Assembly: GCF_026125785.1 (NCBI RefSeq)
Contig: NZ_JAHCKL010000007.1
Span: 62,001-126,000 of the forward strand
Reading direction: 5' to 3'
DNA from: Hydrogenophaga sp.
Lineage (GTDB): Bacteria; Pseudomonadota; Gammaproteobacteria; Burkholderiales; Burkholderiaceae_C
DNA: 64,000 nt
Shown: one piece after another, positions 1 through 63,231 of the stretch
How the letters are laid out: each line of letters opens with the position of its first letter
How positions within the stretch are numbered: the first letter of the stretch is position 1
Translations under genes and position numbers: made by a program
Notes under the pieces: model-generated
Databases searched by the model: none
The model's input: only the letters and a program-made list of their open reading frames with translations
Told to the model about the DNA's origin: nothing

Positions 1-382
1 AATTTTTCGCGTAGACGTTGTAGAACGCCGGGCTCACGAACTCGGCCCGGTCACCGATGAAGGGCACTTCAATGATCTCGGTGAACACGAACTTGCCCGG
101 CGAATAGCCGGGTACCACGACCGCCACGTCGGCGAGGCCATCGCGCACCACGTCGTACTGGCCGGCCACTGTGCCCACCACCTTGGGCAGCATGTCGAAC
201 TTCACGCGGCCCGCCGTCGCTTTCTCGACCTCGACCACCCAGGGATCGAGGATCTTGGTTCGCACCGGATGTCCCGGCGGAACAAAATTGGAATACCGCA
301 ACACGGTCTGCGCCTGTGCCGTTGCCGCGATCGCCATGGTCATGACGGCCGAGGCGGCCAGCTTGCCCAACAGATGTTTCAT
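1..382 (-). CDS. TRAP transporter solute-binding protein, DctP family (3' part outside window)
   Basis: Periplasmic receptor of a tripartite ATP-independent periplasmic (TRAP) transporter; only the first 127 residues lie in the window. The start follows a good AGGAGA ribosome site. A signal peptide of about 24 residues ends at AQA, followed by the mature start QTVLRYSNFVPPGHPV, a typical DctP N-terminus that introduces the solute-binding lobe. It is the last visible gene of a minus-strand operon with a lipocalin-like protein, a kinase-like protein and a small helical protein. It is only distantly similar to the receptor in the right-hand module, so the two modules probably bind different ligands. 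The ligand is unknown. The permease subunits may lie beyond the left edge. Confidence 0.85.
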   Translation of the reverse strand, partial: MKHLLGKLAASAVMTMAIAATAQAQTVLRYSNFVPPGHPVRTKILDPWVVEVEKATAGRVKFDMLPKVVGTVAGQYDVVRDGLADVAVVVPGYSPGKFVFTEIIEVPFIGDRAEFVSPAFYNVYAKN

Positions 383-463
383 GGTTGTCTCCTGTGTCGT
401 TGATGTTCAAAACCCACTCACACCGCGAATGCCTGTCTCTCTATCCGTTCCAAGGACCGCTGC

Positions 464-1009
464 TCACCCGTCCCTTCTCGCACGTTCGGCGAAACAGCCT
501 TCCAGCGTAGGGATCGCAGCCGGATCCGGCTCCCAACCCTGCGGAAGGAACCACGCACGTTGCATGCGCAGCAGTTCGGCGGATGCTTCCAGCACAGCAC
601 GTTCGATACGGTCCCGCGCGGGGTGTGCCACACGTTGCGCGGTGCGCACCAGGGCAGTGACCACCCCCGCGAGCGCCTGGGCACGGGCCTGGAGCTCGCT
701 GGTTGCGGCGTCCGCGCTGTCCAGGCTGCGCCTGGCGGCCAGCTGCGCCTCGGCCATCGCCTGCGCTACCGCCGGCGACACCTGCTGCGCATCGGCTTGC
801 AGAGCTTCGGCCAGATCGGCGTAATGCCCCAACTCGAAACGGTTGCGCTCATGGCCGTGCAGCCAGCGTTGTCCGAACAGCTTCAGGAACCGGGTCACCA
901 GCGTGGCCTGCTCCATGGCCAGCGGATGTCCCTTGTCGACCGCGGGCAGAACGACCTGCTCCATCGCGCGCGCTGCCGCCATCAGGGCGTTGATGCTGTG
1001 GTCCGCCAT
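464..1009 (-). CDS. Small helical protein paired with a phosphotransferase (conserved unknown)
   Basis: 181 residues, predicted mostly helical, rich in Ala, Gln, Glu and Arg, with no signal peptide or membrane segment. Its start codon shares a TGATG overlap with the stop of the upstream kinase-like gene, so translation is probably coupled. A paralogue in the right-hand module has the same length, the same coupling and shared blocks: an N-terminal MAD start, LEQVV/MEQVV-AP/LPAV, and a C-terminal MQRAWFL. The family may be DUF6285-like, which I recall next to similar kinases, but I cannot confirm this from sequence alone. A role as partner or stability subunit of the kinase is inferred from the conserved pairing. 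Confidence 0.75.
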   Translation of the reverse strand: MADHSINALMAAARAMEQVVLPAVDKGHPLAMEQATLVTRFLKLFGQRWLHGHERNRFELGHYADLAEALQADAQQVSPAVAQAMAEAQLAARRSLDSADAATSELQARAQALAGVVTALVRTAQRVAHPARDRIERAVLEASAELLRMQRAWFLPQGWEPDPAAIPTLEGCFAERARRDG

Positions 1010-2271
1010 CAGGAACTCCCGAGAAGCTGGCCGCGCATTTCCTCGGCCAGTTGGTAGACGATGCCTTCGATCCAGGTCAGCAGCACGTCCTGGTGCGAGC
1101 GCCCGAGCCGCGCAACGCGGTAGGCCGTGCCCAGCGACGACGCCACCAATTGGTAGCTGTTGAGAATGCGGTAGTAACGCAGGCGCTGTGGGTCGATGGA
1201 CAGCCCTGAAAGGCGTTCGTACTCGGTGTAGAACGTCTCCAGCGGAACCAGGCCAGACACCAGGAAGGTCTTGCCGTCCTCTGCGTAGTTGCCGAATAGC
1301 GGCAGCGTGATCCAGGCCAGGTCCCGGTGGCGATCACCGATGTAGCCGCGCTCCCAGTCCAGCCAGGCGGTGATGCGCGAACTGGCTTCGTCGAACAGGA
1401 AGTTGCCCGAACGGTAGTCCCCATGCAGCACGCTCACGCGGTCCAGCTCGGGCATGTGCCGCTCCAGCCAGTTGGCGGCCACGTCCATCAACGGCAGTTC
1501 CTCTCCCCGGTCTTCCTCCCAGATGCGCCGCGCCCGGTTGAGCTGCCACAGCGCCGTCTGAGTGGTACCGACAGCGGGTACATCAAAGGCACTGAAGTCG
1601 CGCCCCTGAACATCCAGTGTGTGGATGCGTGCGAGATGCTCGACGAACTGCGAGCCCAGTTGGGCGCGGAGCATGGGTCCGAAGCTCGCGCCCACGCCAC
1701 CCACACGGCCTTCCACCTGCGTCGGTTTGGTCACGCCGCTGGCAAAGGCATAGATCAACGCGGGCTCCGGAAACCACGCACCCTCCGCATCCACCCAGTA
1801 CACACGGGGTACCGGCAGGGTGTCCGCGAAGGCCTGGATGAGCTGCGACTCGCGCAACCGGCTGGTGGCGCTCAGCGACTCCTGCGGCTCCATGCGCACC
1901 ACCAGTCGGGTCCGCGTGCGCTGGCCCTGTTGTTGCGGATCCTCCCAATCCAACAGGAAGGTGAGCTGTATCTTGGAGCCGCCGCCGGTCATCCAGCGCA
2001 GTTCGCTGACCTCGAAGTCACCTTGCACATGCGCTCGCAGGAAGCGGTCCAGGAAGCCGCCGAACTCGGCCAGTTCCACCGGGCTTCGCCTCGGCAGCAG
2101 CCGCCTGCGCATCTTGCGCGTGAGCATGGCGTCCATCTCGCGCTCGGTTGGGAACCTCTCACGCATGCGCGCGATGAAGGCTTCATCAGGTGCATCACGC
2201 AGCGCATGGTCCATGCCCCGCATGTCTTCGAGGACGTCGCGCCCCGGATCGTGGCTCATGCCGGCCCCCAT
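1009..2271 (-). CDS. APH-fold phosphotransferase of the ACAD10/11 kinase type
   Basis: 420 residues in the aminoglycoside-phosphotransferase (protein-kinase-like) fold. The Brenner motif HGDYRSGN (H283, D285, N290) gives the catalytic Asp and metal-binding Asn. The following LDWE provides the second metal-binding Asp, and GDRHRDLAW completes the block. This form is closer to the kinase domain of ACAD10/ACAD11, which acts on 4-hydroxyacyl-CoAs, than to antibiotic kinases. An ATG four codons downstream (position 2259) has a slightly better GGGGG ribosome site and is an alternative start. An upstream GTG would overlap the preceding gene. It sits between a lipocalin-like gene and the small helical protein, and is clearly paralogous to the kinase in the right-hand module. 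The substrate is unknown. Confidence 0.85.
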   Translation of the reverse strand: MGAGMSHDPGRDVLEDMRGMDHALRDAPDEAFIARMRERFPTEREMDAMLTRKMRRRLLPRRSPVELAEFGGFLDRFLRAHVQGDFEVSELRWMTGGGSKIQLTFLLDWEDPQQQGQRTRTRLVVRMEPQESLSATSRLRESQLIQAFADTLPVPRVYWVDAEGAWFPEPALIYAFASGVTKPTQVEGRVGGVGASFGPMLRAQLGSQFVEHLARIHTLDVQGRDFSAFDVPAVGTTQTALWQLNRARRIWEEDRGEELPLMDVAANWLERHMPELDRVSVLHGDYRSGNFLFDEASSRITAWLDWERGYIGDRHRDLAWITLPLFGNYAEDGKTFLVSGLVPLETFYTEYERLSGLSIDPQRLRYYRILNSYQLVASSLGTAYRVARLGRSHQDVLLTWIEGIVYQLAEEMRGQLLGSS

Positions 2272-2281
2272 GGCGATGATC

Positions 2282-3286
2282 TCAGCCGGTGGTGATGGCC
2301 GCGGGCCAGGCCTGCGCACGTCGGCCACGCAGCTTGGTCAGCGTCTTGATGGGCAGAACCTCCATCACCACGCCGTAGCCCACGCGATCCCCCAGCGTCC
2401 AGCGCATCAGCGCTGTGTAGCAGGTGGTGGCGTAGATGTTCCAGGGGGCACCCACATCGGCCATTGCATGCAGTTGGTAGACCTTGCCGCGCACGTCGGT
2501 GACCGTCATGGACATGGAGCTCACCGTCACGCCCAGGCGGACGCTGGAAATCTCCAGAGTGACCACGCCATACTGCTTGCCGTTCTCCAGCACGTAGCCA
2601 TGCGCGAGCTTCTGATCGCGTCCGCTCGGAGCCTCCATGTCCACATGGGTGATGAGGTGGAACGCGAGGTTCTCGTCGAACTGGGCGGAGATCGAATCCA
2701 TGGCCGGCAGGTCGTTCTCGCCACGCTCTCCCCAGCTGTGGTCCATGCGCTCCAGCGAGTCGACCTTGAACTCCTTGCCACGCACCTTCACCGTGCCGCG
2801 CACACGACCGGTCATGTCGAAATGGCCGTTCCAGGCACGCGCCAGGCCGGACTTGGCCATCTTCTCTTCGTGCGTGCCCACCGCGTGTGGCGTGTGCTTG
2901 ATGTCGTGCACGTCGAACGGGTCCATGATGCCGTTCCAGTCGACATGGATCTCGGTGTCGTCGAAGCCGACATAGTCGATGCGGAACTCGCGCGGCGGCA
3001 CGACGGCGCGGATGCGCAGGCCCGAAGGCGAGTCGATCTCGGACAGCTTCGTCGGCGCGGGCAGGTGCACCTGGCTGTCCACATACAGCAGTTCGGCCCG
3101 GTTGTCGGTCAGCGTGCCGTAGATGTAGATGTCGTTGAGCATCACCCCCAGCTTGGGCCGTGCTGCCACGTACACCATCACCAGGATATGTTCCTCAGGT
3201 ATGGCAATCGGGAATATGTAGGTCTCGGCCCAGCGGTGGTCGGCGCCAGGCGGCGTGTGGTATTCCACATCACGCGCAGTGATCAT
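2282..3286 (-). CDS. AttH/CrtC-type lipocalin-like protein (DUF7064/7065-like)
   Basis: 334 residues. The ATG is preceded by AGGAGA at good spacing, so this start (MITARDVEYH) is preferred over a longer upstream reading. There is no signal peptide. The central motif MDHSWGERGEND resembles the DHSWG signature of AttH/CrtC (carotenoid hydratase) tandem-lipocalin proteins. Two beta-rich halves are plausible: roughly residues 1-160 and 165-334. It is first in the minus-strand operon, divergent from the LysR gene across a 139-bp gap. A same-length paralogue in the right-hand module starts MITAKDSEFH. A hydratase, isomerase or ligand-binding role is possible, but I see no proof of catalysis. Confidence 0.7.
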   Translation of the reverse strand: MITARDVEYHTPPGADHRWAETYIFPIAIPEEHILVMVYVAARPKLGVMLNDIYIYGTLTDNRAELLYVDSQVHLPAPTKLSEIDSPSGLRIRAVVPPREFRIDYVGFDDTEIHVDWNGIMDPFDVHDIKHTPHAVGTHEEKMAKSGLARAWNGHFDMTGRVRGTVKVRGKEFKVDSLERMDHSWGERGENDLPAMDSISAQFDENLAFHLITHVDMEAPSGRDQKLAHGYVLENGKQYGVVTLEISSVRLGVTVSSMSMTVTDVRGKVYQLHAMADVGAPWNIYATTCYTALMRWTLGDRVGYGVVMEVLPIKTLTKLRGRRAQAWPAAITTG

Positions 3287-3392
3287 CTTGTCTCCTGGTT
3301 GGTTGTCCGTTGTCCGCGATCGCATCGCGTCTGCCACGCAATGTAGCCACGGCACCAGAAACGGGAAATTGAAATCTTCGGGGCTTTGTATT

Positions 3393-3406
3393 CCTACAAT
3401 GCATAC
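3393..3406 (+). promoter_or_regulatory. Shared element upstream of the first LysR gene (operator or core promoter)
   Basis: CCTACAATGCATAC lies 19 bases before the LysR start and resembles CTGCAATGACATAC, which lies 24 bases before the second LysR start in the same orientation relative to the gene. TACAAT inside it could be a -10 box, with TTGAAA upstream but at a long 20-base spacing. It may be an autoregulatory site, a promoter, or both. Confidence 0.4.
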
Positions 3407-3425
3407 CTAACTCGGAGATGCAACG

Positions 3426-4397
3426 ATGAACCATCCCGCTCCCCGGCTCGTCCCGGGTCATGTCAAGACGCGCCACATGCAACTGCTGGCGGCACTGTCC
3501 GAGGATGGATCCATCCTGCACGCTGCCGAACGCCTGGGCATGACGCAGTCGGCGGCATCGCGCCTGCTCAGCAGTCTGGAGAGCGACGTTGGCGTCGCCC
3601 TTTTCGAGCGGCACGCACGCGGCGTGACCCCCACGCCGTACGGAGACATCCTCATCCGGCGCGCGCTCTCCGCACTGGCCGAAATTCAGCGCGCGACCCA
3701 GGAGATGGACGATTTCGCGCGCGGCGACCGCGTCCCCGTCTCGGTGGGCTGCCTGCTCAGCCAGAGCGCCACCTATCTGCCCAAGTGCCTGCTGCAGTTG
3801 GCGCAGACAGCGCCCGACCTGCTGCTGAGCGTGGAGACCGACACCAGCCGCGCACTGATCGAAGGCTTGATGAGCGCGCAGTACGATTTCGTGATCGCCC
3901 GCGTGCGCGATGCCACCCTTCAACCTGAACTGTTGTTCGAACCCTTGATTGCCGAGCCGATCTGCGTGGTCGTGCGCAAGGGACATCCCTACACCCGCAG
4001 GCGCAAGCTGGTGATGGCGGACATCGTGACCTTGCCGTGGATATTGCCGCCACCCAAAAGCGATCTGCGCATCCGTTTCGATGCGGTGTGTGTGCAGCAG
4101 GGCCTGCCACTGCCTCCCAGCCTGATCGAGACGCTGTCCGTTCCCGTCATGATGGGCATGCTGCAGATGAGCGATGCGCTGGTGCTGCTGCCCGACGAGT
4201 TCGCGCGTCCGTACTGCAAGACAGGGCTTTTTTCGATCTTGTCCATCGACTTGGGTGTCCGTTCGGACAACGTGGGCATTCTCACCAGAAGACACCGCCC
4301 GCGCTCGCCGCAGGCCGAACGGGCCCTGGCGGTGTTTCGCCGGACCGCCACGCGGCTGTATGGGATGAAGTTCACCGAATCCGCACGCGATCGCTGA
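3426..4397 (+). CDS. LysR-type transcriptional regulator (left module)
   Basis: 323 residues. The N-terminal winged helix-turn-helix (about residues 15-75) contains the typical SQSAASRLLSSLE-like recognition helix (here TQSAASRLLSSLESDVG). The periplasmic-binding-like effector domain follows. It is transcribed divergently from the lipocalin-like/kinase/TRAP operon, the standard arrangement for a LysR activator of that operon. It is a close paralogue of the LysR gene immediately downstream on the other strand; long blocks around the helix-turn-helix are nearly identical. GGAG precedes the start. The effector is probably the transported compound or a derivative, which is inference. Confidence 0.92.
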   Translation: MNHPAPRLVPGHVKTRHMQLLAALSEDGSILHAAERLGMTQSAASRLLSSLESDVGVALFERHARGVTPTPYGDILIRRALSALAEIQRATQEMDDFARGDRVPVSVGCLLSQSATYLPKCLLQLAQTAPDLLLSVETDTSRALIEGLMSAQYDFVIARVRDATLQPELLFEPLIAEPICVVVRKGHPYTRRRKLVMADIVTLPWILPPPKSDLRIRFDAVCVQQGLPLPPSLIETLSVPVMMGMLQMSDALVLLPDEFARPYCKTGLFSILSIDLGVRSDNVGILTRRHRPRSPQAERALAVFRRTATRLYGMKFTESARDR

Positions 4398-4414
4398 GCC
4401 CGGCTCAGCGGGCC

Positions 4415-5389
4415 TCACGACGACCCGGCCTTCAGCTCACCCGCGGAGGAGCCGTACATGGCGGCAGACACCTCGCGGAACACCCTCAGAGCCTGGCGCA
4501 ACGGTGGGCTGGCGTCGTGATGGCGGCGCGTGATGATGCCCACGTTCTCGGTGCGGTCGCCCAGATCCACGGCCAGCATGGACAACAGACCGCTGTCGCA
4601 GAATGGCCGCGCGAACTCACGCGGCAGGGCCACCAGCGCATCGCTCATGCGCACCACGCTCAGGATCACCGGCACGGACAGCGTCTCGATCAGACCCGCG
4701 ATACGGGGCAGTCCGCTCTGCACGCAAAGCGCATCCAGTCGCACGCGCATGTCGGTCTCGGGTGGTGGCAGCACCCATTTTTCGCTGGTGACGTCCGCCA
4801 GGCCCAGGCGCCGGCGTCGGCTCAGGGCGTGTCCGGGCCGCACATAGACCTTGATGGGTTCGGTCGACAGCGGCTCGAACACCAGGTCGGGCTCCAGCGA
4901 TGCGTCACGCACGCGCGCAATCACCACGTCAAAACGAGCGGCCAGCAAGCCGTCGATCAAGGTCCGGCTGCGGTCGGTATCTACCTTGATCAGCAGATCG
5001 GGCGCCTGCCGCGCGAGCTCCAGCACCGCGCGGGGCAGGAACGTGGAACTCAGGCTGAGCAGGCCGCCGATGGACAGCGGCAGGCGGTTGCCGCGCACGA
5101 AGTCCTGGACTTCATGGCCCGCGCGCGCCATTTCCGCCAGTGCGGAGACCGCCCGGCGGGTAACGATCTCGCCCACCGGGGTGGGTGACACGCCGCGCGC
5201 GTGCCGCTCGAAAAGGGCGACGCCGACGTCGCTCTCCAGGCTGCTGAGCAGGCGCGAGGCCGCCGACTGGCTCATGTTCAGCGCCTCGGCGGCATGGATC
5301 ACAGAGCCCGTCTCCCGCAGTTGGGCCAGCAATTGCAACTGTCGCATCTTGAGATGCGAGGAAACGAGACGGGGTGCGCGGGTCGCCAT
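4415..5389 (-). CDS. LysR-type transcriptional regulator (right module)
   Basis: 324 residues, N-terminal winged helix-turn-helix (SQSAASRLLSSLESDVG) and a C-terminal effector-binding domain. The ATG after GGAGACA was chosen; an upstream reading adds 18 residues without family support. It converges with its paralogue, leaving 17 bases between the stops, and diverges from the right-hand kinase/TRAP operon, which it presumably controls. The two regulators share the DNA-recognition region almost unchanged, so cross-regulation of both modules is possible. Confidence 0.92.
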   Translation of the reverse strand: MATRAPRLVSSHLKMRQLQLLAQLRETGSVIHAAEALNMSQSAASRLLSSLESDVGVALFERHARGVSPTPVGEIVTRRAVSALAEMARAGHEVQDFVRGNRLPLSIGGLLSLSSTFLPRAVLELARQAPDLLIKVDTDRSRTLIDGLLAARFDVVIARVRDASLEPDLVFEPLSTEPIKVYVRPGHALSRRRRLGLADVTSEKWVLPPPETDMRVRLDALCVQSGLPRIAGLIETLSVPVILSVVRMSDALVALPREFARPFCDSGLLSMLAVDLGDRTENVGIITRRHHDASPPLRQALRVFREVSAAMYGSSAGELKAGSS

Positions 5390-5413
5390 GGCGTGTCTCC
5401 TGTCGATTTCGAT

Positions 5414-5427
5414 GTATGTCATTGCAG
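5414..5427 (-). promoter_or_regulatory. Shared element upstream of the second LysR gene
   Basis: Read toward the regulator it is CTGCAATGACATAC, matching CCTACAATGCATAC of the other LysR gene apart from an A inserted after CAATG and two substitutions. It lies 24 bases before the start codon. No strong -35 box was identified at standard spacing, which favours an operator reading slightly over a plain promoter. Confidence 0.4.
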
Positions 5428-5527
5428 CATAGCTCGCGTGCAAGAACGCAATTTATCGGCAAGGACAAACAACCTACATTGGAAGGGCCAAAGCCGCTGG
5501 ACGGCACACCAAGAACACGGAGACAAC

Positions 5528-5569
5528 ATGAACCTTCTGCATCGCCCGGCTGCCGCCGCTGCGCGCTAG
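5528..5569 (+). pseudogene. 13-codon minigene; gene remnant or leader peptide
   Basis: ATG preceded by CGGAGACAAC, as good a ribosome site as any real gene here, encoding MNLLHRPAAAAAR then TAG. The peptide looks like the start of an export signal, as in TRAP or tripartite-tricarboxylate receptors, cut short. It may be the leftover 5' end of a deleted receptor gene or a short leader upstream of the kinase operon. Nothing recognisable follows in any frame. Confidence 0.35.
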
Positions 5570-5698
5570 CGCCAAGTCGGCGCGCCCAGAGTCCCGCTTC
5601 CCCACCACCGCCCGCGCCAGCCGGCCCTGCCACCACACCGGTGGTATTGCCCGCCTGTGCGAGCTTGTGCCTCCCACATCCCAAGAGCCTATCGACAC

Positions 5699-6925
5699 AT
5701 GCATCCGAAGCTCCACCCCTGGCAGGTCTCCGACGAGAATCGCGACCACCCCGACCCCGCTTTCATCGAGCGCATGCGGCAGCAGTTCCCCACTGAACGG
5801 GAGGTGGATCTGATGCTGACGCGCAAGATGCAGCGGCGAGCCAGCCCGCCCTTCGACGGTGTCAGCTTCGAAGCCATGAGCGGCTACATCGCCGCTCTGC
5901 TGAAGGACCGCGTGGAAGGTCCCTTCTCCATCATGGACCAGCGTTGGTTTTCCGGCGGAGCCTCCAAGATCCAGATGGGCTTCACCCTGCATTGGGACGA
6001 GCCGGGTGTCGGCCCCACGCAAACGAAGCTGGTGGCGCGCATGGAGCCGGCCGAATCGCTGAATGCCACCAGCCGCGCGCGCGAGTTCGAGCTGCTCGAA
6101 GCATTTCAGGGTGTTCTCCCGGTGCCCAAGGTGTACTGGGTGGACCCGGATGGCACCTGGTTTCCAGAGCCCGCATTGATCTACGCATTTGCCGAGGGCG
6201 TCACCAAGCCGCGCTCACTGCAGGGCAAGGTGGCCGGCATAGGGACCAACTTCGGACCCGAGCTGCGCCGCCGCCTGCTGCCTGATTTCGTGGCGCATCT
6301 TGCCCGCATCCACACCTTCGACCCACAGAGCCGGCCCTTCGTGGCCTTTGACCGGCCGAGCGTGGGAACCACGCAAAGCGCGCTGTGGCAGCTCAACCGG
6401 GCGCGGCGCATCTGGGAGGAAGACCGGGGCGAGGAACTGCCGTTGATGGAGGTGGCCGCCAACTGGCTGGAGCGCCGCATGCCGAAGCTGGATCGCCTGA
6501 GCGTGGTTCATGGCGACTACCGGTCGGGCAATTTCCTCTTCGACGAAGACAGCGCGCGCATCACCGCGGTTCTGGACTGGGAGCGAGGCTACCTCGGCGA
6601 TCGCCACCGCGATCTGGCCTGGACCACGGCGGAGCAGTATGGCCACTGGAGCGAGGATGGCAAAACGTTCCTCGCTTCGGGCATCGCCCCGGTCAACGAA
6701 CTGCTGGAGCGCTACGAAGCGGCCAGCGGACTGCGGGTGGACCCCGCCACGCTGGACTACTACCGGGTCTTCAACTGCTACCAGATCGTGGTGACCGCGC
6801 TGGCATCGTCGTACCGCGTGGTTCATCTGGGCAAGACGCACCAGGACGTACTGATCGCCTGGATCGAGGGCGCGGCCTATGGCTCCATGGAGGAGCTGCG
6901 CCAGGCAATGGAAAGGAGCCTCTGA
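5699..6925 (+). CDS. APH-fold phosphotransferase of the ACAD10/11 kinase type (right module)
   Basis: 408 residues, paralogue of the kinase in the left module. It carries HGDYRSGN (H271, D273, N278), the catalytic loop of the aminoglycoside-phosphotransferase fold, and D293 in LDWE, the second metal ligand. GDRHRDLAW follows. The N-terminal block FPTEREVDLMLTRKMQRR matches the left copy. The ATG was chosen although its ribosome site is weak; a GTG 14 codons upstream is an alternative. Its stop overlaps the next start as TGATG. It likely phosphorylates a hydroxyl group of an imported or acyl-linked substrate, by analogy with ACAD10/11; the substrate is not known. Confidence 0.85.
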   Translation: MHPKLHPWQVSDENRDHPDPAFIERMRQQFPTEREVDLMLTRKMQRRASPPFDGVSFEAMSGYIAALLKDRVEGPFSIMDQRWFSGGASKIQMGFTLHWDEPGVGPTQTKLVARMEPAESLNATSRAREFELLEAFQGVLPVPKVYWVDPDGTWFPEPALIYAFAEGVTKPRSLQGKVAGIGTNFGPELRRRLLPDFVAHLARIHTFDPQSRPFVAFDRPSVGTTQSALWQLNRARRIWEEDRGEELPLMEVAANWLERRMPKLDRLSVVHGDYRSGNFLFDEDSARITAVLDWERGYLGDRHRDLAWTTAEQYGHWSEDGKTFLASGIAPVNELLERYEAASGLRVDPATLDYYRVFNCYQIVVTALASSYRVVHLGKTHQDVLIAWIEGAAYGSMEELRQAMERSL

Positions 6926-7467
6926 TGGCCGACAACACCCAGAACATCCTCAAATCCGCCATCAAGTCCCTGGAGCAGGTGGTGGCGCCCGCAGTGAATC
7001 CCGAAGACCCGCTGGCCAGCGAACAGCTTCGCCTGGTGATCGGTACGCTCAAGGTTCTGCGCACCCGCCTCGACCATCTGGCAGGCCGCCAGCTCTACGA
7101 ACTGGACCACTATCTGGCTCTGGCGCGCAGCCTGCGTGACGAGGCCGACGAGGTATCCCCGGAGATTGCCGAGCGCCTGTGCGCCGCCATCGAGGCCGCC
7201 GAACAGCTGCGCGCCAACCCCGACCATTCGCCCGCAGACCGCCGCCGGGTCACGCGTGCATTGGCTTCGCCCATCAGTGCCCTGGCGCGCGAAGCTTCGT
7301 CCACCCATGAGGCCTTGCGCTCGCGCATCGAGCGCAAGGTCGTGACCGATTCGCGCCGCTGGGTCGATATGCAGCGGGCCTGGTTCCTCACGCACGGCTT
7401 CGAGTTGCGCCCCTCCGAGTTGCCGGCGCTGGACACCCTCTTTCACCAGCCACCTGGCCGCGCCTGA
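6925..7467 (+). CDS. Small helical protein paired with a phosphotransferase (right module)
   Basis: 180 residues, helical, no membrane segment. The start is preceded by GGAAAGGAG and overlaps the kinase stop (TGATG), exactly as in the left module. Conserved blocks shared with the other copy are an N-terminal MAD start, LEQVVAPAV, a central heptad-like Ala/Glu/Arg region, and MQRAWFL near residue 145-150. Function is unknown. The constant kinase pairing suggests a subunit or partner. DUF6285 is a possible family, unconfirmed. Confidence 0.78.
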   Translation: MADNTQNILKSAIKSLEQVVAPAVNPEDPLASEQLRLVIGTLKVLRTRLDHLAGRQLYELDHYLALARSLRDEADEVSPEIAERLCAAIEAAEQLRANPDHSPADRRRVTRALASPISALAREASSTHEALRSRIERKVVTDSRRWVDMQRAWFLTHGFELRPSELPALDTLFHQPPGRA

Positions 7468-7571
7468 AAGTCCCCCCACCGTTCACCGACTGGCCCTTTC
7501 CGTACCGCCCCGGAACGTCAACGCGCCGCTGCCAGTCGCGGTGCCGAAGACACCCACACAAGGAGACAAGC

Positions 7572-8579
7572 ATGAGCATCCAACGCCGGACCCTTCTGGC
7601 CGCCTCCGCAGGCGCCCCTTTCGTCCTCACCGTGCCGCGCCATGCGCGCGCGGCCGAGTTCAACATGAAGTGGGGTTGCTTTGCCCCGCCTGACCACCCC
7701 TTGAGCACCAATGCGGTGGAGGCGGCCCGAAAAATCAATGCCGAGACCAAGGGCCGCGTGGAGATCAACTACTTCCCATCGAGCCAGCTCGGCGGCGACA
7801 CCGACATGCTGGCCCAGGTGCGCGCGGGTGCGCTGGACTTCTACACCACCTCCGCCTCGTTCATGACGACACTGAATCCTTCGGTAGGCCCGAGCGCGTT
7901 GGGATTCGCCTTCAAGGACTACGCGACGATCTGGAAGGCCGTGGATGGCGACGTCGGCCAGGTGGCTCGCCGCGCCGCTGCCGCCGCCAACATCCACATC
8001 TTCGAGAAGTTCTGGGACCTGGGTTTTCGCACTGTCTCGCACGGCAGCAAGCCGGTGAGCACCCTGGCCGACATGCAGGGCATGAAGATCCGCGTGCCGG
8101 TGCTGCCCATGTTCTTCAACATGTTCAAGGCCCTGGGCGCGGCTCCGGTCAGCATGAATTTCTCGGAGCTCTACACCTCGCTGCAGACCAAGCTGGTGGA
8201 CGGCCAGGAGAACCCGCTGGTCAACGTCTTCACGGCCAAGTTCTACGAGGTGCAGAAGTTCATCTCGCTCACCAACCATTGCTGGGAAGGCATGCTCATC
8301 GCCTCCAACCGCAACCGCTTCAACAGCCTGCCGGCGGACATCCAGGAGGTGATCACGCGCAACATCAACGCCGCGGCCCTGAAAGAGCGCGAGGACATGA
8401 GCAAGCTCACCGCCGACGTGCGCACCAAGCTGGAAGCCCAGGGCGTGAAGTTCAACGAGATCGATATCGCTCCGTTCCGCGAGCGGCTCAAGCAGGCCGG
8501 CTACTACAAGGAGTGGAGAGGAAAGATGGGGGATGAAACCTGGGCCGCCATCGAGAAGTACGCAGGCTCCCTGTCCTGA
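7572..8579 (+). CDS. TRAP transporter solute-binding protein, DctP family
   Basis: 335 residues. The N-terminus MSIQRRTLLAAS has a twin arginine and a signal of about 27 residues ending ARA, so Tat or Sec export is possible. The mature protein has the DctP layout: a substrate lobe beginning FNMKWGCFAPPDHPLS, then the conserved Arg-containing segment MKIRVPVLPMFFNMFKALGAAPV, where the Arg in family members salt-bridges the ligand carboxylate. AAGGAGACAAGC precedes the start. With the fused permease two genes downstream it completes a TRAP system. A carboxylate ligand is likely from the family. Confidence 0.93.
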   Translation: MSIQRRTLLAASAGAPFVLTVPRHARAAEFNMKWGCFAPPDHPLSTNAVEAARKINAETKGRVEINYFPSSQLGGDTDMLAQVRAGALDFYTTSASFMTTLNPSVGPSALGFAFKDYATIWKAVDGDVGQVARRAAAAANIHIFEKFWDLGFRTVSHGSKPVSTLADMQGMKIRVPVLPMFFNMFKALGAAPVSMNFSELYTSLQTKLVDGQENPLVNVFTAKFYEVQKFISLTNHCWEGMLIASNRNRFNSLPADIQEVITRNINAAALKEREDMSKLTADVRTKLEAQGVKFNEIDIAPFRERLKQAGYYKEWRGKMGDETWAAIEKYAGSLS

Positions 8580-8600
8580 GCATCGGAGAGAGACGACAAC

Positions 8601-9605
8601 ATGATCACCGCCAAGGATTCCGAGTTCCACCCTGTTCCCAAAAGCAACTGGCGCTGGGCAGAGACCACGCCGCTGTCCTTCTCGGTACCCCAAGCCGGCA
8701 TATTGGGCAACCTGTACATCGCGGCCCGCCCCAACCTGGGCGTGGCATTGTCGTCGGTGGGCATCGTCAAGGGCTTTCGCTTCCAGCCGCACGAGGTGGA
8801 TTTCAGTGACGCTCAGATGCACCTGCCGTGCCCGGACAACTACACCCGGTACACACTGGAAAGCGGCTTGAGCGTGCATGTGCAGGAACCGCCGCGCGTG
8901 ATGCGTTTCCAGTACGAGTACAAGCTCGGGGGGTGCTCCTTCGATCTGACGTTCCGCGGCCTGCACGAACCTTTCGACGCCGCCGACCCGACCCAGAACC
9001 CTCTTCTGGCGACGGCCGAAGGCCAACGCTTCGATGAGCGGCTGGGTACGCAATGGGGCAACCCCACGTCGGACCCCGACAACCCCAGCGGCCACTTCGA
9101 GCTGCTGGGCCACATCACCGGACACCTCGAACTGCGCGGCCAACGCTACGAGGTGGACTGCTACGACTGCGTGGACCACAGCTGGAGCCGGCGCACCGAG
9201 ACCAGCAAGCGCGCCGTGAGCTGGATTTCCGCGGCCTTTGGCGAGGACTATGGTCTGCACATGGCCATGCTGCTGGACGTGCGCAACGGAAAGACCGTGT
9301 ACGAAAGCCTGCGCAATGGCTACGCCATGGAAAACGGCGAGGTGTTTGGCTTGGTCTCCGCTACCGTGGAAGGTTATGGCAGCCACTTCTGCCCGATGAA
9401 CGTGCGCATCGTGGCCACCGACGTGCGTGGCAAGCGCCACGAGGTCAGCGGCAATGCCATCGCGGTCCACCCCTGGTACAACTACAACCCCTCGCACGTG
9501 GCGTTCCAGTCGCTCATGCAATGGCGGTGCGGCAACAGGGTGGGCTACAGCGAGATGGCCGACATCTTCGGCCTGGAGTACCTGGCCGAACGCCAGGCCC
9601 TTTGA
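8601..9605 (+). CDS. AttH/CrtC-type lipocalin-like protein (right module)
   Basis: 334 residues starting MITAKDSEFH, paralogous to the 334-residue protein of the left module. The central motif is VDHSWSRRTETSKR; the left copy has DHSWGER, so the Gly after Trp is Ser here. Beta-rich, no signal peptide, no membrane span. It lies between the TRAP receptor and permease genes, which ties it to the transported compound. It could be a hydratase, an isomerase or a ligand carrier; none is shown by the sequence. Confidence 0.7.
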   Translation: MITAKDSEFHPVPKSNWRWAETTPLSFSVPQAGILGNLYIAARPNLGVALSSVGIVKGFRFQPHEVDFSDAQMHLPCPDNYTRYTLESGLSVHVQEPPRVMRFQYEYKLGGCSFDLTFRGLHEPFDAADPTQNPLLATAEGQRFDERLGTQWGNPTSDPDNPSGHFELLGHITGHLELRGQRYEVDCYDCVDHSWSRRTETSKRAVSWISAAFGEDYGLHMAMLLDVRNGKTVYESLRNGYAMENGEVFGLVSATVEGYGSHFCPMNVRIVATDVRGKRHEVSGNAIAVHPWYNYNPSHVAFQSLMQWRCGNRVGYSEMADIFGLEYLAERQAL

Positions 9606-9619
9606 ACGGAGGCCGGACC

Positions 9620-11458
9620 GTGAACGCCCCAGCTCCCGCAACACCCTCGCCCAAGGGTCTGGCCGCCTGGCTGCTGGGCACGCTGGAGGCCCTTGCTGCC
9701 CTGCTGATGGTGGCCATCGTGCTGCTGCTGTTCGGCGGAGTGGTCTCTCGCTATGTGTTCGCCATGCCGGTGGTCTGGATCGATGAGGTCGCGTCGGTGG
9801 CGTTCATCTGGGTCGGCATGTTGGGTGCGACCATTGCGATGGCCCGCAACGAGCACCTGCGGCTCAACCTGATGGTGGACCTGCTGCCTGCACGCGCGCG
9901 TGAGTACGTGCATGGATTTTCTCTGGCTGCCATGGCGGCGCTGTTGCTGGCGCTGATCTGGCCGGCGTATCTCTACACGCGGGAGGAATGGATCATCCAG
10001 ACCCCCGCGCTGTCGATCCCCAACTCTTTCAAGGTGGGGGCCATTGCGTTCGGTTTCGCCGCCATGCTGCTGCTGATCGTGGTTTACGCCGGCCGCACTG
10101 TGCGCAGGCCGGCGCTGGCCGCAGGCGCCCTGGTGGTGGCCGCCGTGGTGAGCATCTGCTGGCTGCTGGCGCCACAGCTTGCACAGATCGGTACGGCCAG
10201 CATTCCGCTGTTCCTCGGCGGCTTCACCGTCCTCTGTCTGCTGGCCGGTGTACCCATTGCCTTCTGCTTCGGCATCGGCGCGGTCAGCCTGCTGGCCTTC
10301 ACGACATCCATGCCACTGATGGTGGTGATCGGACGCATGGACGAAGGCATGTCCAGCCTGGTGCTGATTTCTGTGCCGATTTTCGTGCTGCTGGGTTGCG
10401 TGCTCGATGCCACCGGCATGGGCAAGGCCATCGTGGATTTTCTGGCCAGCCTCCTGGGGCATGTCAAAGCCGGCATGTCCTACGTGCTGCTGGGTTCGCT
10501 GTTCATTGTCTCCGGCATCTCCGGCTCCAAGGTGTCCGACATGGCCACCGTCGCTCCGGCCCTGTTCCCGGAGATGAAGCGGCGCGGCCACCAGCCACGC
10601 GAGATGGTGGCCTTGCTGGCCACGGGGGCGGCCATGGCCGATACCGTCCCGCCCAGCATCGTGCTGATCGTCCTCGGTGCCGCGGTGGGCGTGTCCATCG
10701 CAGGTCTGTTCCAGGCCGGCTTCGTGGTCGCCATGGTGCTGCTGGCCACGCTGCTGCTGCTGGCGCGCTGGAAGGCACGCCACGAAGACATGGCGGGCAT
10801 ACGGCGCACCCCACGCGAACGCGTGGTCCGCTTCGCACTGGTTGCCACGCCTGCGCTGATCCTGCCATTCCTGATCCGCGCACTCGTCGGTGAAGGCATC
10901 GCCACAGCCACCGAAGTCTCCACGGTCGCTGTGCTGTACGCCCTGTTGATCGGCCAATGGCTCTACGGCGGCATCTCGCCGCGCACCTTCTACCGGATGC
11001 TGGTAGACAGCGCATCCCTGACCGGTGCGGTGCTGCTGATTCTGGGTGCCGCGTCGGCCATGGCATGGACCATCACGCAGAGCGGCGTCGTGCAGCAGCT
11101 CTCCGGCTTTCTGACGACCCTGCCCGGTGGCGCCTTCACCTTCATGCTGGTCACCATAGCGGCCTTCCTGATTCTGGGTTGCCTGCTGGAAGGTCTGCCT
11201 GCGGTGCTGCTGCTTGCCCCCATCATGTACCCCATCGCGCGCAAGCTGGGCATCAACGACATCCACTACTCCATGGTGGTTGTCTGTGCGATGAACGTGG
11301 GCCTGATGATGCCCCCCATTGGTGTCGGCTTCTACATCGCCTGCCGCATCGGAGACGTCAAACCCGACGAGGTGATACGCCCCATCTGGTCCTATCTGGC
11401 CGCCCTGCTGATCGGCGTCCTGATCATCGCGGCGGTGCCGGCGATATCGCTGGTCTAG
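9620..11458 (+). CDS. Fused TRAP permease, DctQ-DctM
   Basis: 612 residues starting at GTG after ACGGAGG. Residues about 15-165 form the four-helix DctQ small subunit, with WIDEVASVAFIWVGMLGA at the conserved second helix. After extra linker helices, residues about 190-610 form the 12-helix DctM large subunit, with FIVSGISGSKVSDMATVAP and MADTVPPSIVLIVLGAAVGVS as the conserved substrate/sodium-site segments. It drives sodium- or proton-coupled uptake of the ligand delivered by the receptor encoded two genes upstream. Its TAG stop overlaps the stop of the convergent methyltransferase gene within a CTAG. Confidence 0.95.
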   Translation: MNAPAPATPSPKGLAAWLLGTLEALAALLMVAIVLLLFGGVVSRYVFAMPVVWIDEVASVAFIWVGMLGATIAMARNEHLRLNLMVDLLPARAREYVHGFSLAAMAALLLALIWPAYLYTREEWIIQTPALSIPNSFKVGAIAFGFAAMLLLIVVYAGRTVRRPALAAGALVVAAVVSICWLLAPQLAQIGTASIPLFLGGFTVLCLLAGVPIAFCFGIGAVSLLAFTTSMPLMVVIGRMDEGMSSLVLISVPIFVLLGCVLDATGMGKAIVDFLASLLGHVKAGMSYVLLGSLFIVSGISGSKVSDMATVAPALFPEMKRRGHQPREMVALLATGAAMADTVPPSIVLIVLGAAVGVSIAGLFQAGFVVAMVLLATLLLLARWKARHEDMAGIRRTPRERVVRFALVATPALILPFLIRALVGEGIATATEVSTVAVLYALLIGQWLYGGISPRTFYRMLVDSASLTGAVLLILGAASAMAWTITQSGVVQQLSGFLTTLPGGAFTFMLVTIAAFLILGCLLEGLPAVLLLAPIMYPIARKLGINDIHYSMVVVCAMNVGLMMPPIGVGFYIACRIGDVKPDEVIRPIWSYLAALLIGVLIIAAVPAISLV

Positions 11459-12316: not shown

Positions 12317-12393
<77 letters not shown>

Positions 12394-12878: not shown

Positions 12879-13865
12879 TCAGTGCTTGTCAAGGCCGGCG
12901 GGCGGCCAGTTTTCCAGCTTCATGCCCAAGGTCAGGCCGCGCGAGGCAAGCACTTCCTTGATTTCATTGAGCGACTTGCGACCCAGGTTGGGGGTCTTGA
13001 GCAACTCATTCTCGGTGCGCTGGATGAGGTCACCGATGTAGTAAATATTCTCCGCCTTGAGGCAGTTGGCCGAGCGCACCGTGAGTTCGAGCTCGTCCAC
13101 AGGACGCAGCAGGATGGGGTCGAACTGTTGCGAGCTGCGCTGGGCAGGCGCGTCGAAGGCGGAGAGCTCCACACCTTCGAGTTGGGCGAACACCGCGAGC
13201 TGTTCCACCAGGATCTTGGCCGAGGCACGCACCGCCTCTTCCGGTCCGATCGAACCGTTCGTCTCGATCTCCAGCACGAGCTTGTCCAGGTCGGTGCGCT
13301 GTTCGACACGGGCGCTCTCGACCGTGTAGCTCACGCGCTTGACGGGTGAAAAGGAGGCATCGAGAACGATGCGCCCGATGGAGCGGGCCTGGTCGTCGTT
13401 GCGGCGCACGCTGCCAGGCACGTAGCCACGGCCCTTTTCGACCTTGATCTGCATGTCCAGCTTGGCGCCGGCGGACAAGGTGGCAATCACATGGCCCGGG
13501 TTGACGATTTCGACATCGTGCGGAGTCTGGATATCTGCGGCGGTGACCTGGCCTTCGCCGTCCTTGCGCAGGCTCAGCGTGACTTCGTCGCGGTTGTGCA
13601 GCTTGAAGACCACGCCCTTGAGGTTCAGGAGCATGTTGACCACATCTTCCTGCACGCCATCGATGGACGAATACTCGTGCACCACACCGGCGATGGTGAC
13701 TTCGGTCGGCGCGTGGCCCGTCATGGAAGACAGCAGAACCCGGCGCAGGGCATTGCCCAGCGTGTGGCCATAACCGCGCTCGAAGGGCTCGAGCGTGACT
13801 TTGGCGCGGTTGGTCGACACTTGTTCGACGTTGATGGTCTTGGGCTTGAGCAGATTGTTCAGCAT
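12879..13865 (-). CDS. rpoA: RNA polymerase alpha subunit
   Basis: 328 residues, standard length. The N-terminal dimerisation and assembly domain (about 1-235) contains [19 protein letters not shown]. The C-terminal domain (about 250-325) has the DNA- and activator-contacting segment [21 protein letters not shown] and the helix-hairpin-helix [14 protein letters not shown]. It lies between rpsD and rplQ in the alpha operon with gaps of 91 and 72 bases. Confidence 0.99.
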
Positions 13866-61981: not shown

Positions 61982-63231
61982 ACACCGCCAAGACCCTTCT
62001 GCCCGGTGCCGCCACGCCCAGCGGGCAGCCCATCACGCTGGGCGTGATGGGTGGCGGGCAACTCGGGCGCATGTTCGTGCAGGCCGCGCAGGCCATGGGC
62101 TTCACCACCGCCGTGCTCGACCCCGACCCGGCCAGTCCGGCCGGCCTGATCAGCCACCACCACATCCGCACACCCTACGCCGACGAGCAAGGACTCGCGC
62201 AGCTCGCCCAGCGCTGCGAGGCCATCACCACCGAATTCGAGAACGTCCCCGCGCAGGCCTTGACCACGCTGGCCGCGCAGCGCACGGTCGCGCCGTCGGC
62301 CGCCTGCGTGGCGGTGGCGCAGGACCGGCTCAGGGAGAAGGCTCATTTCCTGCAGTGCGCGTCCACCAGCGGCGTGAGTCCGGCCCCGCACGCGGCCATC
62401 ACCACCGATGCGCAACTCGCCGCCGTGCCAGACGACCTGCTGCCCGGCATTCTCAAGACCGTGCGCATGGGCTACGACGGCAAGGGGCAGGCCCGCGTGG
62501 CCACACGCGCAGAACTGGCCGCTGCCTGGGATGCCATGGACAAGGTGCCCTGCGTGCTGGAGAAGCGCCTGCCCCTGCATGCCGAGTGCTCGGTCATCGT
62601 GGCGCGCGGTGCCGACGGCCAGGTGGTGAGTTTCCCGGTGCAGAAAAACACCCACCGCGATGGCATCCTGGCGCTGACCGAGGTGCATGAGGGCACGCTG
62701 GACCCGGCGCTGGCGCAGCGCGCGCAGGCCAGCACGGTGGCCATCGCCAGCCAGCTCCGGTACGTCGGCGTGCTCTGCGTCGAGTATTTCGTGGTGCAGG
62801 CCCGCGATGGCACGCTCGACCTGGTCGTCAATGAAATGGCACCGCGCCCGCACAACAGCGGCCATTACACGCAGAACGCCTGCGACATATCCCAGTTCGA
62901 GGCACAGGTGCGCGCCCTGGCCGGCCTGCCGCTGCCCACGCCACGCCAGCACAGCCCCGCCATCATGGTCAACCTGCTGGGCGATCTCTGGTTCGAGGCC
63001 AACGCGGTGCGCACTCAGCGCAGCGACCGGCCTGTGACGCCGCCCTGGGCCCAGGTGCTGGCGCTGCCGGGCACCCACCTGCACCTGTACGGCAAGCTCA
63101 ATGCACGCCCGGGCCGCAAGATGGGCCACCTCAACGTCACCGGCGCCAGCGTGGCGCAGGTGCGCGACACGGCGTCCCGCGCACTGGCACTGCTGGGCCT
63201 GGAAGGCCTGGCGGCTGGCGCGGCGCGCTGA
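61978..63231 (+). CDS. purK: N5-carboxyaminoimidazole ribonucleotide synthase
   Basis: 417 residues; start overlaps the purE stop (ATGA). ATP-grasp enzyme making N5-CAIR from AIR, bicarbonate and [39 protein letters not shown] (grasp lysine region) and [20 protein letters not shown] are diagnostic. Confidence 0.97.

Follow-up and report, generated by a model that had tools for sequence, protein, structure and literature searches.

What two neighbouring gene sets, each joining a solute importer to a kinase, might do for their host is the question raised by a stretch of the genome of Hydrogenophaga sp. (NCBI RefSeq assembly GCF_026125785.1; 4.17 Mb). The analysed window comprises 64,000 nucleotides and starts at base 62001 of the 199,270-base contig NZ_JAHCKL010000007.1. 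Within its positions 1-11458, two divergent modules lie on opposite strands, each consisting of genes for an APH-fold kinase, a small partner protein of about 180 residues, a 334-residue DUF7065/DUF7064 protein, a TRAP receptor and a LysR regulator. All of these parts had been named in the original prediction and were found. Each module is probably a cassette for uptake and ATP-dependent dehydration, a reading in which the reactions and substrates are deduced from the observed gene content, gene order, homology, one fold match and the recurrence of the kinase, partner and DUF7065/DUF7064 genes as a triad.

The DUF7065/DUF7064 proteins are encoded at 2282..3286 (minus strand, left module) and 8601..9605 (plus strand, right module), and both domains score above the curated Pfam cut-offs in both proteins. 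The left protein was modelled with AlphaFold (pLDDT 80, pTM 0.82) on the basis of five sequences, of which two come from the window and three from a locus (L016) in the metagenome-assembled genome (MAG) of a Comamonadaceae relative. In a Foldseek search of this model against PDB, matches 1-5 were all 25-phosphosteroid lyase (25-PSL; 9fzn, 9g4c and 9g2i; E 1.6e-13 to 2.1e-12). As this is the closest fold, phosphate elimination is the likely step, and the protein is likely a lipocalin-type barrel related to 25-PSL and a predicted phospho-lyase (hereafter, lyase). The original prediction had proposed an AttH/CrtC-like lipocalin, which can now be made more precise, 25-PSL being the closest fold; kievitone hydratase (1.1e-8), AttH (4.1e-8) and other entries of the fold, including the pericyclases of 7dmo, come after it. 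These later matches, at E of about 1e-8, and the earlier guess of CrtC-type chemistry would suit an enzyme of the CrtC, AttH or kievitone hydratase type that adds or removes water at a free double bond or hydroxyl, with the kinase serving a separate step. We regard this as unlikely, since the best 25-PSL match is better than the best of the others by nearly five orders of magnitude, the lyase genes adjoin kinase genes, and 25-PSL is the only PDB protein found by a profile of the family.

This profile (alignment A6, 12 relatives), searched against PDB with E values up to 1, retrieved two distinct sequences, both of them 25-PSL (E 6.2e-4 and 0.013), and the alignment spans the lyase motif D-R-SWG-x-R. 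D-x-SW-x-x-R is kept in 12/12 rows of A6, including the left lyase (DHSWGER), and the glycine of SWG is replaced by serine in the right lyase only; the shared D-x-SWG-x-R motif is our own observation and not a published membership criterion. A bridge between the window lyases and 25-PSL is provided by two further loci, L035 and L032, in which a lyase, a kinase and a different small protein are encoded in succession. Their lyases match the 25-PSL PDB entry with E values of 1.1e-45 and 2.4e-44, respectively, and are in turn matched by A6 (1.5e-5 and 4e-4). The window lyases do not reach this level of similarity to 25-PSL (6.2e-4 for the profile vs 1.1e-45 for the L035 lyase) and, given these much closer relatives of 25-PSL, represent a remote branch. 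A narrower form of the dehydration reading would make the modules a steroid side-chain pathway with orthologues of 25-PSL and of 25-hydroxysteroid kinase (25-HSK); the lyase fold is the same, but the closer relatives in L032 and L035 and the smaller carboxylates that TRAP systems usually carry render it quite improbable.

The kinases, encoded at 1009..2271 (minus strand, left) and 5699..6925 (plus strand, right), are single-domain proteins with the Pfam APH fold. As originally described, both carry HGDYRSGN and LDWE intact; all 11 rows of a kinase profile (A5) likewise contain LDWE and the loop H-x-D-x-R-x-GN. Seven PDB sequences were matched by A5 at E <= 1e-5, namely 3ats (which we take to be Rv3168, an APH-type kinase of Mycobacterium tuberculosis), 9o56, 9fsg, 3dxp, the ACAD11 entries 8v3v and 8v3u (E 1.3e-16 for ACAD11) and, last, the aminoglycoside kinase 4h05 (E 7.5e-6). 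Together with the APH fold, this last and weak match is what speaks for an aminoglycoside-type resistance kinase with chance neighbours. Such an identity can practically be dismissed, as no NCBIfam APH model scores the window kinases above 47 bits, whereas the cut-offs start at 205, and the genes recur as a triad and have uptake and CoA-ligase neighbours.

At both junctions, the stop codon of the kinase gene overlaps the start of the partner gene as TGATG, as had been claimed. The partners are encoded at 464..1009 (minus strand, left, 181 residues) and 6925..7467 (plus strand, right, 180 residues), and the right one is predicted to be all-helical (pLDDT 84). Pfam matches of the 12 members of the partner alignment (A4) went no lower than E 0.0086, and searches of PDB yielded neither a convincing sequence relative (best E 0.0039, to JUBO2) nor a fold at E <= 0.001 (best 1.1). 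Homology to DUF6285, which we take to be the family of LvaB, was tried and rejected: the domain was found in 0/12 members of A4 (Pfam, E up to 1) and nowhere in this genome at E <= 0.001, and hhalign of A4 with a 5-sequence DUF6285 alignment gave a non-significant E of 0.056. A different partner type, from L037, aligns with A4 over 71 columns (E 5.4e-4, probability 30%), which is suggestive only, and gave no alignment to DUF6285. Yet another small family (alignment A10, 127-144 residues) follows directly after kinases in four loci (L032:2517-2936, L034:2463-2846, L035:2529-2963 and L036:2505-2921); its L032 member has no Pfam match. In L027:388-1815, a kinase and a DUF6285 stretch share one open reading frame, which may represent an LvaA-type kinase fused naturally to its small partner, and this arrangement fits a physical partnership for the DUF6285 type. 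By analogy with LvaB and its kinase LvaA, the window partners may constitute an undescribed helical family of kinase partners, acting as a substrate-binding, CoA-binding or stabilising subunit.

The overlap of the kinase and partner genes resembles lvaAB, and the kinase profile matches ACAD11. Both observations would also suit a route of the LvaA or ACAD10/11 type, in which a 4-hydroxyacyl-CoA is phosphorylated, the phosphate is then eliminated by an acyl-CoA dehydrogenase whose gene lies elsewhere, and the DUF7065/DUF7064 protein is an accessory. Indeed, lva-like loci with genes for an acyl-CoA dehydrogenase, a kinase and DUF6285 exist (L038-L040; a short-chain dehydrogenase/reductase and a ligase were named there by eye). 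The kinases of these loci, however, form a separate group of the kinase tree (100/99), the window partner is not DUF6285 by Pfam or hhalign, and neither window operon contains an acyl-CoA dehydrogenase gene, so that this route appears improbable.

Dehydration by a linked kinase and lyase gains further support from the recurrence of the triad in the Comamonadaceae MAG, in sphingomonads and in Rhodococcus. A plasmid search returned 214 records matching the right kinase (E <= 1e-5) and 7 matching the right partner (E <= 0.01). Six of the latter (a second Sphingopyxis record was left out) and one record from the kinase list make up loci L017-L023, which together with L016, found by two peptide patterns, amount to eight records. 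The partner profile has 18 matches in these records; 17 of them (leaving out a second, equal-scoring W03 copy) were inspected along with the two window partners. A kinase gene lies directly beside the partner gene in 19/19 cases, in reversed order in one and as a partial kinase in L023, and in eight of these pairs (L023, L064-L067) the kinase had not been selected for, since they were reached via the partner. The lyase profile matches 25 times, 19 times at E <= 1e-50, and for 15 of these 19 strong matches a partner gene is no more than 2 kb away; zones of this kind account for 1.05% of the bases searched. Ten of the 19 are rows of the profile itself; of the nine others, 5/9, including the second W03 copy, fall within 2 kb. 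Seen from the partner, a lyase is encoded within 2 kb in 13/18 cases and within 6 kb in 16/18, the remainder being one Novosphingobium resinovorum pair and L023. The original prediction would have been undermined by families meeting only by chance or by copies that belong to different known operons in relatives; in the neighbourhoods, the families were instead found together in all three groups of organisms.

The megaplasmid pSA1 of N. resinovorum carries seven kinase-partner pairs and six strong lyase matches within about 80-175 kb (L018, L064, L065 and L066). Phosphatase genes (His_Phos_1, Y_phosphatase3) were noticed near triads at L016:11771-12409, L021:17768-18520 and L022:12011-12766, and possibly serve to clear dead-end phosphoesters. 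Elsewhere, the surroundings of the triads hold genes for alcohol and aldehyde dehydrogenases, a P450, TonB receptors and ABC importers of the branched-chain type, some of which were named by eye; such a mixture fits the catabolism of varied compounds. On contig C2 of the Hydrogenophaga genome, a remnant of a third partner gene (G000:C2:110306-110671; L011:9289-9696, minus strand) was found. It consists of the 3' part of the gene directly after a truncated LysR frame and beside a SnoaL-like gene (by eye), has no kinase, was excluded from the 19/19 count and looks like a decayed third module.

Among 398 genomes of the phylum, two have DUF7064 matches above the cut-off, four in all: the pair in the window and a further pair in the genome G415. 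Two matches below the cut-off (L072 and L073) have no such kinase in the roughly 3.3 kb covered. Searches with the partner alignment returned one of 300 genomes of the order and one of 398 of the phylum, each time this genome, which is weak evidence for absence elsewhere because, in the rows listed, scoring was confined to no more than 11 and 8 candidates for each genome, respectively. The kinase was found at E <= 1e-60 in one of 150 genomes of the family and, with a wider profile at E <= 1e-40, in 11 of the 398 phylum genomes, with the window-type partner in this genome only. Since other kinase-lyase pairs occur without the window-type partner, kinase and lyase look like a wider unit in which the partner varies or is missing.

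Recent tandem duplication was considered as the origin of the two modules. In a kinase tree of 34 rows, the left kinase is sister to a kinase of the Comamonadaceae MAG (L016:9989; 100/99) and not to the right kinase, whose own placement is weakly supported (84/25), so that a recent duplication is unlikely; the unequal identities between the copies also speak against it. These amount to 60% for the kinases, 61% for the LysR regulators, 38% for the partners and 31% for the DUF7065/DUF7064 proteins. The modules had been described as parallel, which applies to these four genes and hardly to the transport genes: BLASTP aligns the two receptors (DctP1 and DctP2) over 63 N-terminal residues only, and the DctM parts share 27% identity over 374 residues. 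Judged from sequence, the core of the modules may be an old paralogous pair to which transporters were recruited separately.

The differing gene orders of the original description are borne out by the coordinates. On the minus strand, the left operon runs from the DUF7065/DUF7064 gene through kinase and partner to DctP1, whose N-terminal part occupies 2..382 before the gene leaves the window start (342 residues in full, L005:14354-15382). Past the window edge, in locus L005, it continues with an acyl-CoA ligase (L005:12711-14354), DctQ, DctM and an enoyl-CoA hydratase/isomerase (Pfam), which is crotonase-like in NCBIfam and scores below the cut-offs of the 25 models listed. On the plus strand, the right operon has the order kinase, partner, DctP2 (7572..8579), DUF7065/DUF7064 protein and a fused DctQ-DctM permease (~9620..11458; Pfam) and, unlike the left one, no CoA gene. 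DctP, DctQ and DctM are present in both modules, all above Pfam cut-offs. Between the modules, two convergent regulator genes, LysR 1 (3426..4397, plus strand) and LysR 2 (4415..5389, minus strand), are each divergent from their operon, the left and the right one, respectively. For the left kinase, LysR 2 and the fused permease, we chose the start codon ourselves. A search for a LysR operator common to both intergenic regions yielded no more than weak 12-of-15 matches, besides two near-palindromic T-N11-A sites that share a single region.

Beyond the left module, a plus-strand catabolic operon (L005:1443-8466) encodes a salicylyl-CoA-hydroxylase-like monooxygenase, a MarR regulator, an acyl-CoA dehydrogenase, a benzoate-CoA-ligase-like protein and a RidA-like protein, all named by eye except the dehydrogenase (Pfam). 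Just past the right module, a tRNA-Met gene (12317-12393 of the window) and an rpoA-like gene (12879-13865, by eye) were found, and the modules thus adjoin core genes.

Taken together, these genes suggest the following course of events. The TRAP system would import a hydroxylated carboxylate, and the kinase, aided by its tightly linked helical partner, would use ATP to phosphorylate a hydroxyl that is out of reach of ordinary beta-oxidation, probably a tertiary or otherwise unactivated one. Elimination of the phosphate by the DUF7065/DUF7064 protein would then create a double bond. The acyl-CoA ligase and crotonase-family enzyme of the left module may convert the acid to its CoA ester, either ahead of phosphorylation and elimination or in the course of them, and add water to the product so that it can enter beta-oxidation; the LysR regulators presumably control the modules. 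The TRAP and CoA genes point to a hydroxy-carboxylate as the substrate. As an acyl-CoA ligase and a crotonase are present, the left module suggests action on CoA esters, whereas the right one, having no CoA gene, may use the free acid or the left ligase. The order originally proposed, import followed by phosphorylation and then water or double-bond chemistry, is supported, with phosphate elimination as the likely step by virtue of the lyase fold. DctP1 has 4p56 as its nearest PDB match (E 2.3e-59), and DctP2 shares 47% identity with 4oan over 308 residues. As a hint only, 4p56 is a mandelate-binding receptor and 4oan was modelled with 2-acetolactate. New TRAP ligands listed in the available part of one source include 2-acetolactate, with 4oan unnamed there (PMC5812351).

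Several points weigh against uptake and dehydration as the function. At about 15% identity between the left lyase and 25-PSL (TM 0.62 and a root-mean-square deviation of 5.6 in the Foldseek alignment), the argument rests on fold and neighbourhood and not on sequence; the best single domain of the A6 match is weak (E 0.0099), and the Rv3169 family model of NCBIfam (NF053593) gives the window lyases 28.1 and 29.9 bits with a cut-off of 150. The fold, matched with the left lyase alone, also houses a hydratase and pericyclases, and the right lyase, with DHSWSRR, departs from the SWG of all other rows. A role for the partner finds no backing in any Pfam or PDB relative, DUF6285 included. L023 has only part of a kinase and no lyase, and in G415 both lyases adjoin a kinase without a window-type partner. 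An acyl-CoA dehydrogenase gene, which the LvaA or ACAD10/11-type route would call for, lies on the opposite strand 3.7 kb beyond the left operon (L005:5200-6396; Pfam). Finally, according to the portions of PMC8449060 available, 25-HSK shows little similarity to known phosphotransferases, is active as a single recombinant protein and turns over non-steroidal tertiary alcohols slowly (<0.1%).

Ordinary beta-oxidation comes to a halt at tertiary and other unactivated alcohols, and if the cassettes dehydrate them with ATP, the chemistry of anaerobic sterol breakdown would be wider than the published accounts consulted suggest, with "phosphorylate and eliminate" as a general route beyond anaerobic cholesterol breakdown. 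The evidence leaves it evenly balanced whether an unnamed, patchy and often plasmid-borne cassette of kinase, new helical partner family and 25-PSL-like lyase, with up to seven kinase-partner pairs per megaplasmid (pSA1), dehydrates many non-steroid hydroxy-acids or terpenoid-like alcohols in this way. If so, DUF7064 and DUF7065 would gain a testable reaction, a family without a Pfam entry would gain a role as kinase partner, and the linked TRAP receptors would offer a direct route to the substrate.

Precedents exist for parts of the gene set, which the original prediction could place in no pathway known to it: 25-HSK/25-PSL for kinase plus lyase and LvaA/LvaB for kinase plus partner. The latter pair, from the lva operon of Pseudomonas putida, shares with the window modules a phosphotransferase-family kinase gene followed by a small partner gene. 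As summarised from Rand et al. 2017 in the part of PMC6692424 consulted, LvaB came down with LvaA in a pull-down, growth on levulinate requires both, the two jointly phosphorylate 4-hydroxyvaleryl-CoA, and phosphate elimination is thought to be due to the dehydrogenase LvaC. LvaB has a mass of 12 kDa (PMC6692424), whereas the window partners comprise about 180 residues, have no Pfam family and lack a significant DUF6285 match; and, unlike the lva operon, neither window operon contains an LvaC-type acyl-CoA dehydrogenase. ACAD10 and ACAD11 likewise phosphorylate and then eliminate (PMC12440821), and their kinase domain is related in sequence to the window kinases. In these proteins, however, the kinase is fused to an acyl-CoA dehydrogenase, unlike the single-domain window kinases, and the accessible text describes no lipocalin-type lyase (PMC12440821). 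Rv3168-Rv3169 of M. tuberculosis form an operon for which the sections of the source available describe no transporter genes (PMC5340868); the likeness consists of the weak match of the Rv3169 model to both window lyases, far under its cut-off.

The closest logic is that of Sterolibacterium denitrificans, in which the tertiary alcohol at C25 is phosphorylated by a kinase and then turned into an alkene by a separate lyase, with elimination of the phosphate, as stated in the excerpts available (PMC7411048, PMC8449060). In 2021, the 25-PSL gene was unknown (PMC8449060), and the enzyme was still called putative in 2024 in the text available (PMC11061730). PDB entries named 25-phosphosteroid lyase were released in January 2026, and among the papers listed in the literature searches none was devoted to 25-PSL itself. 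Kinase and separate lyase are common to both systems, and the fold of the left window lyase matches 25-PSL. In the steroid system, however, the substrate is a steroid, and the portions of the literature consulted report no lyase candidate near the kinase gene and mention no small partner (PMC8449060), whereas in the window the kinase and lyase genes lie together with those for a helical partner and TRAP uptake. By analogy, the window modules may be read as 25-HSK/25-PSL chemistry in operon form, coupled to carboxylate uptake, and the set is best regarded as a new form of this established two-step, ATP-dependent dehydration in which a helical partner not described before takes part.

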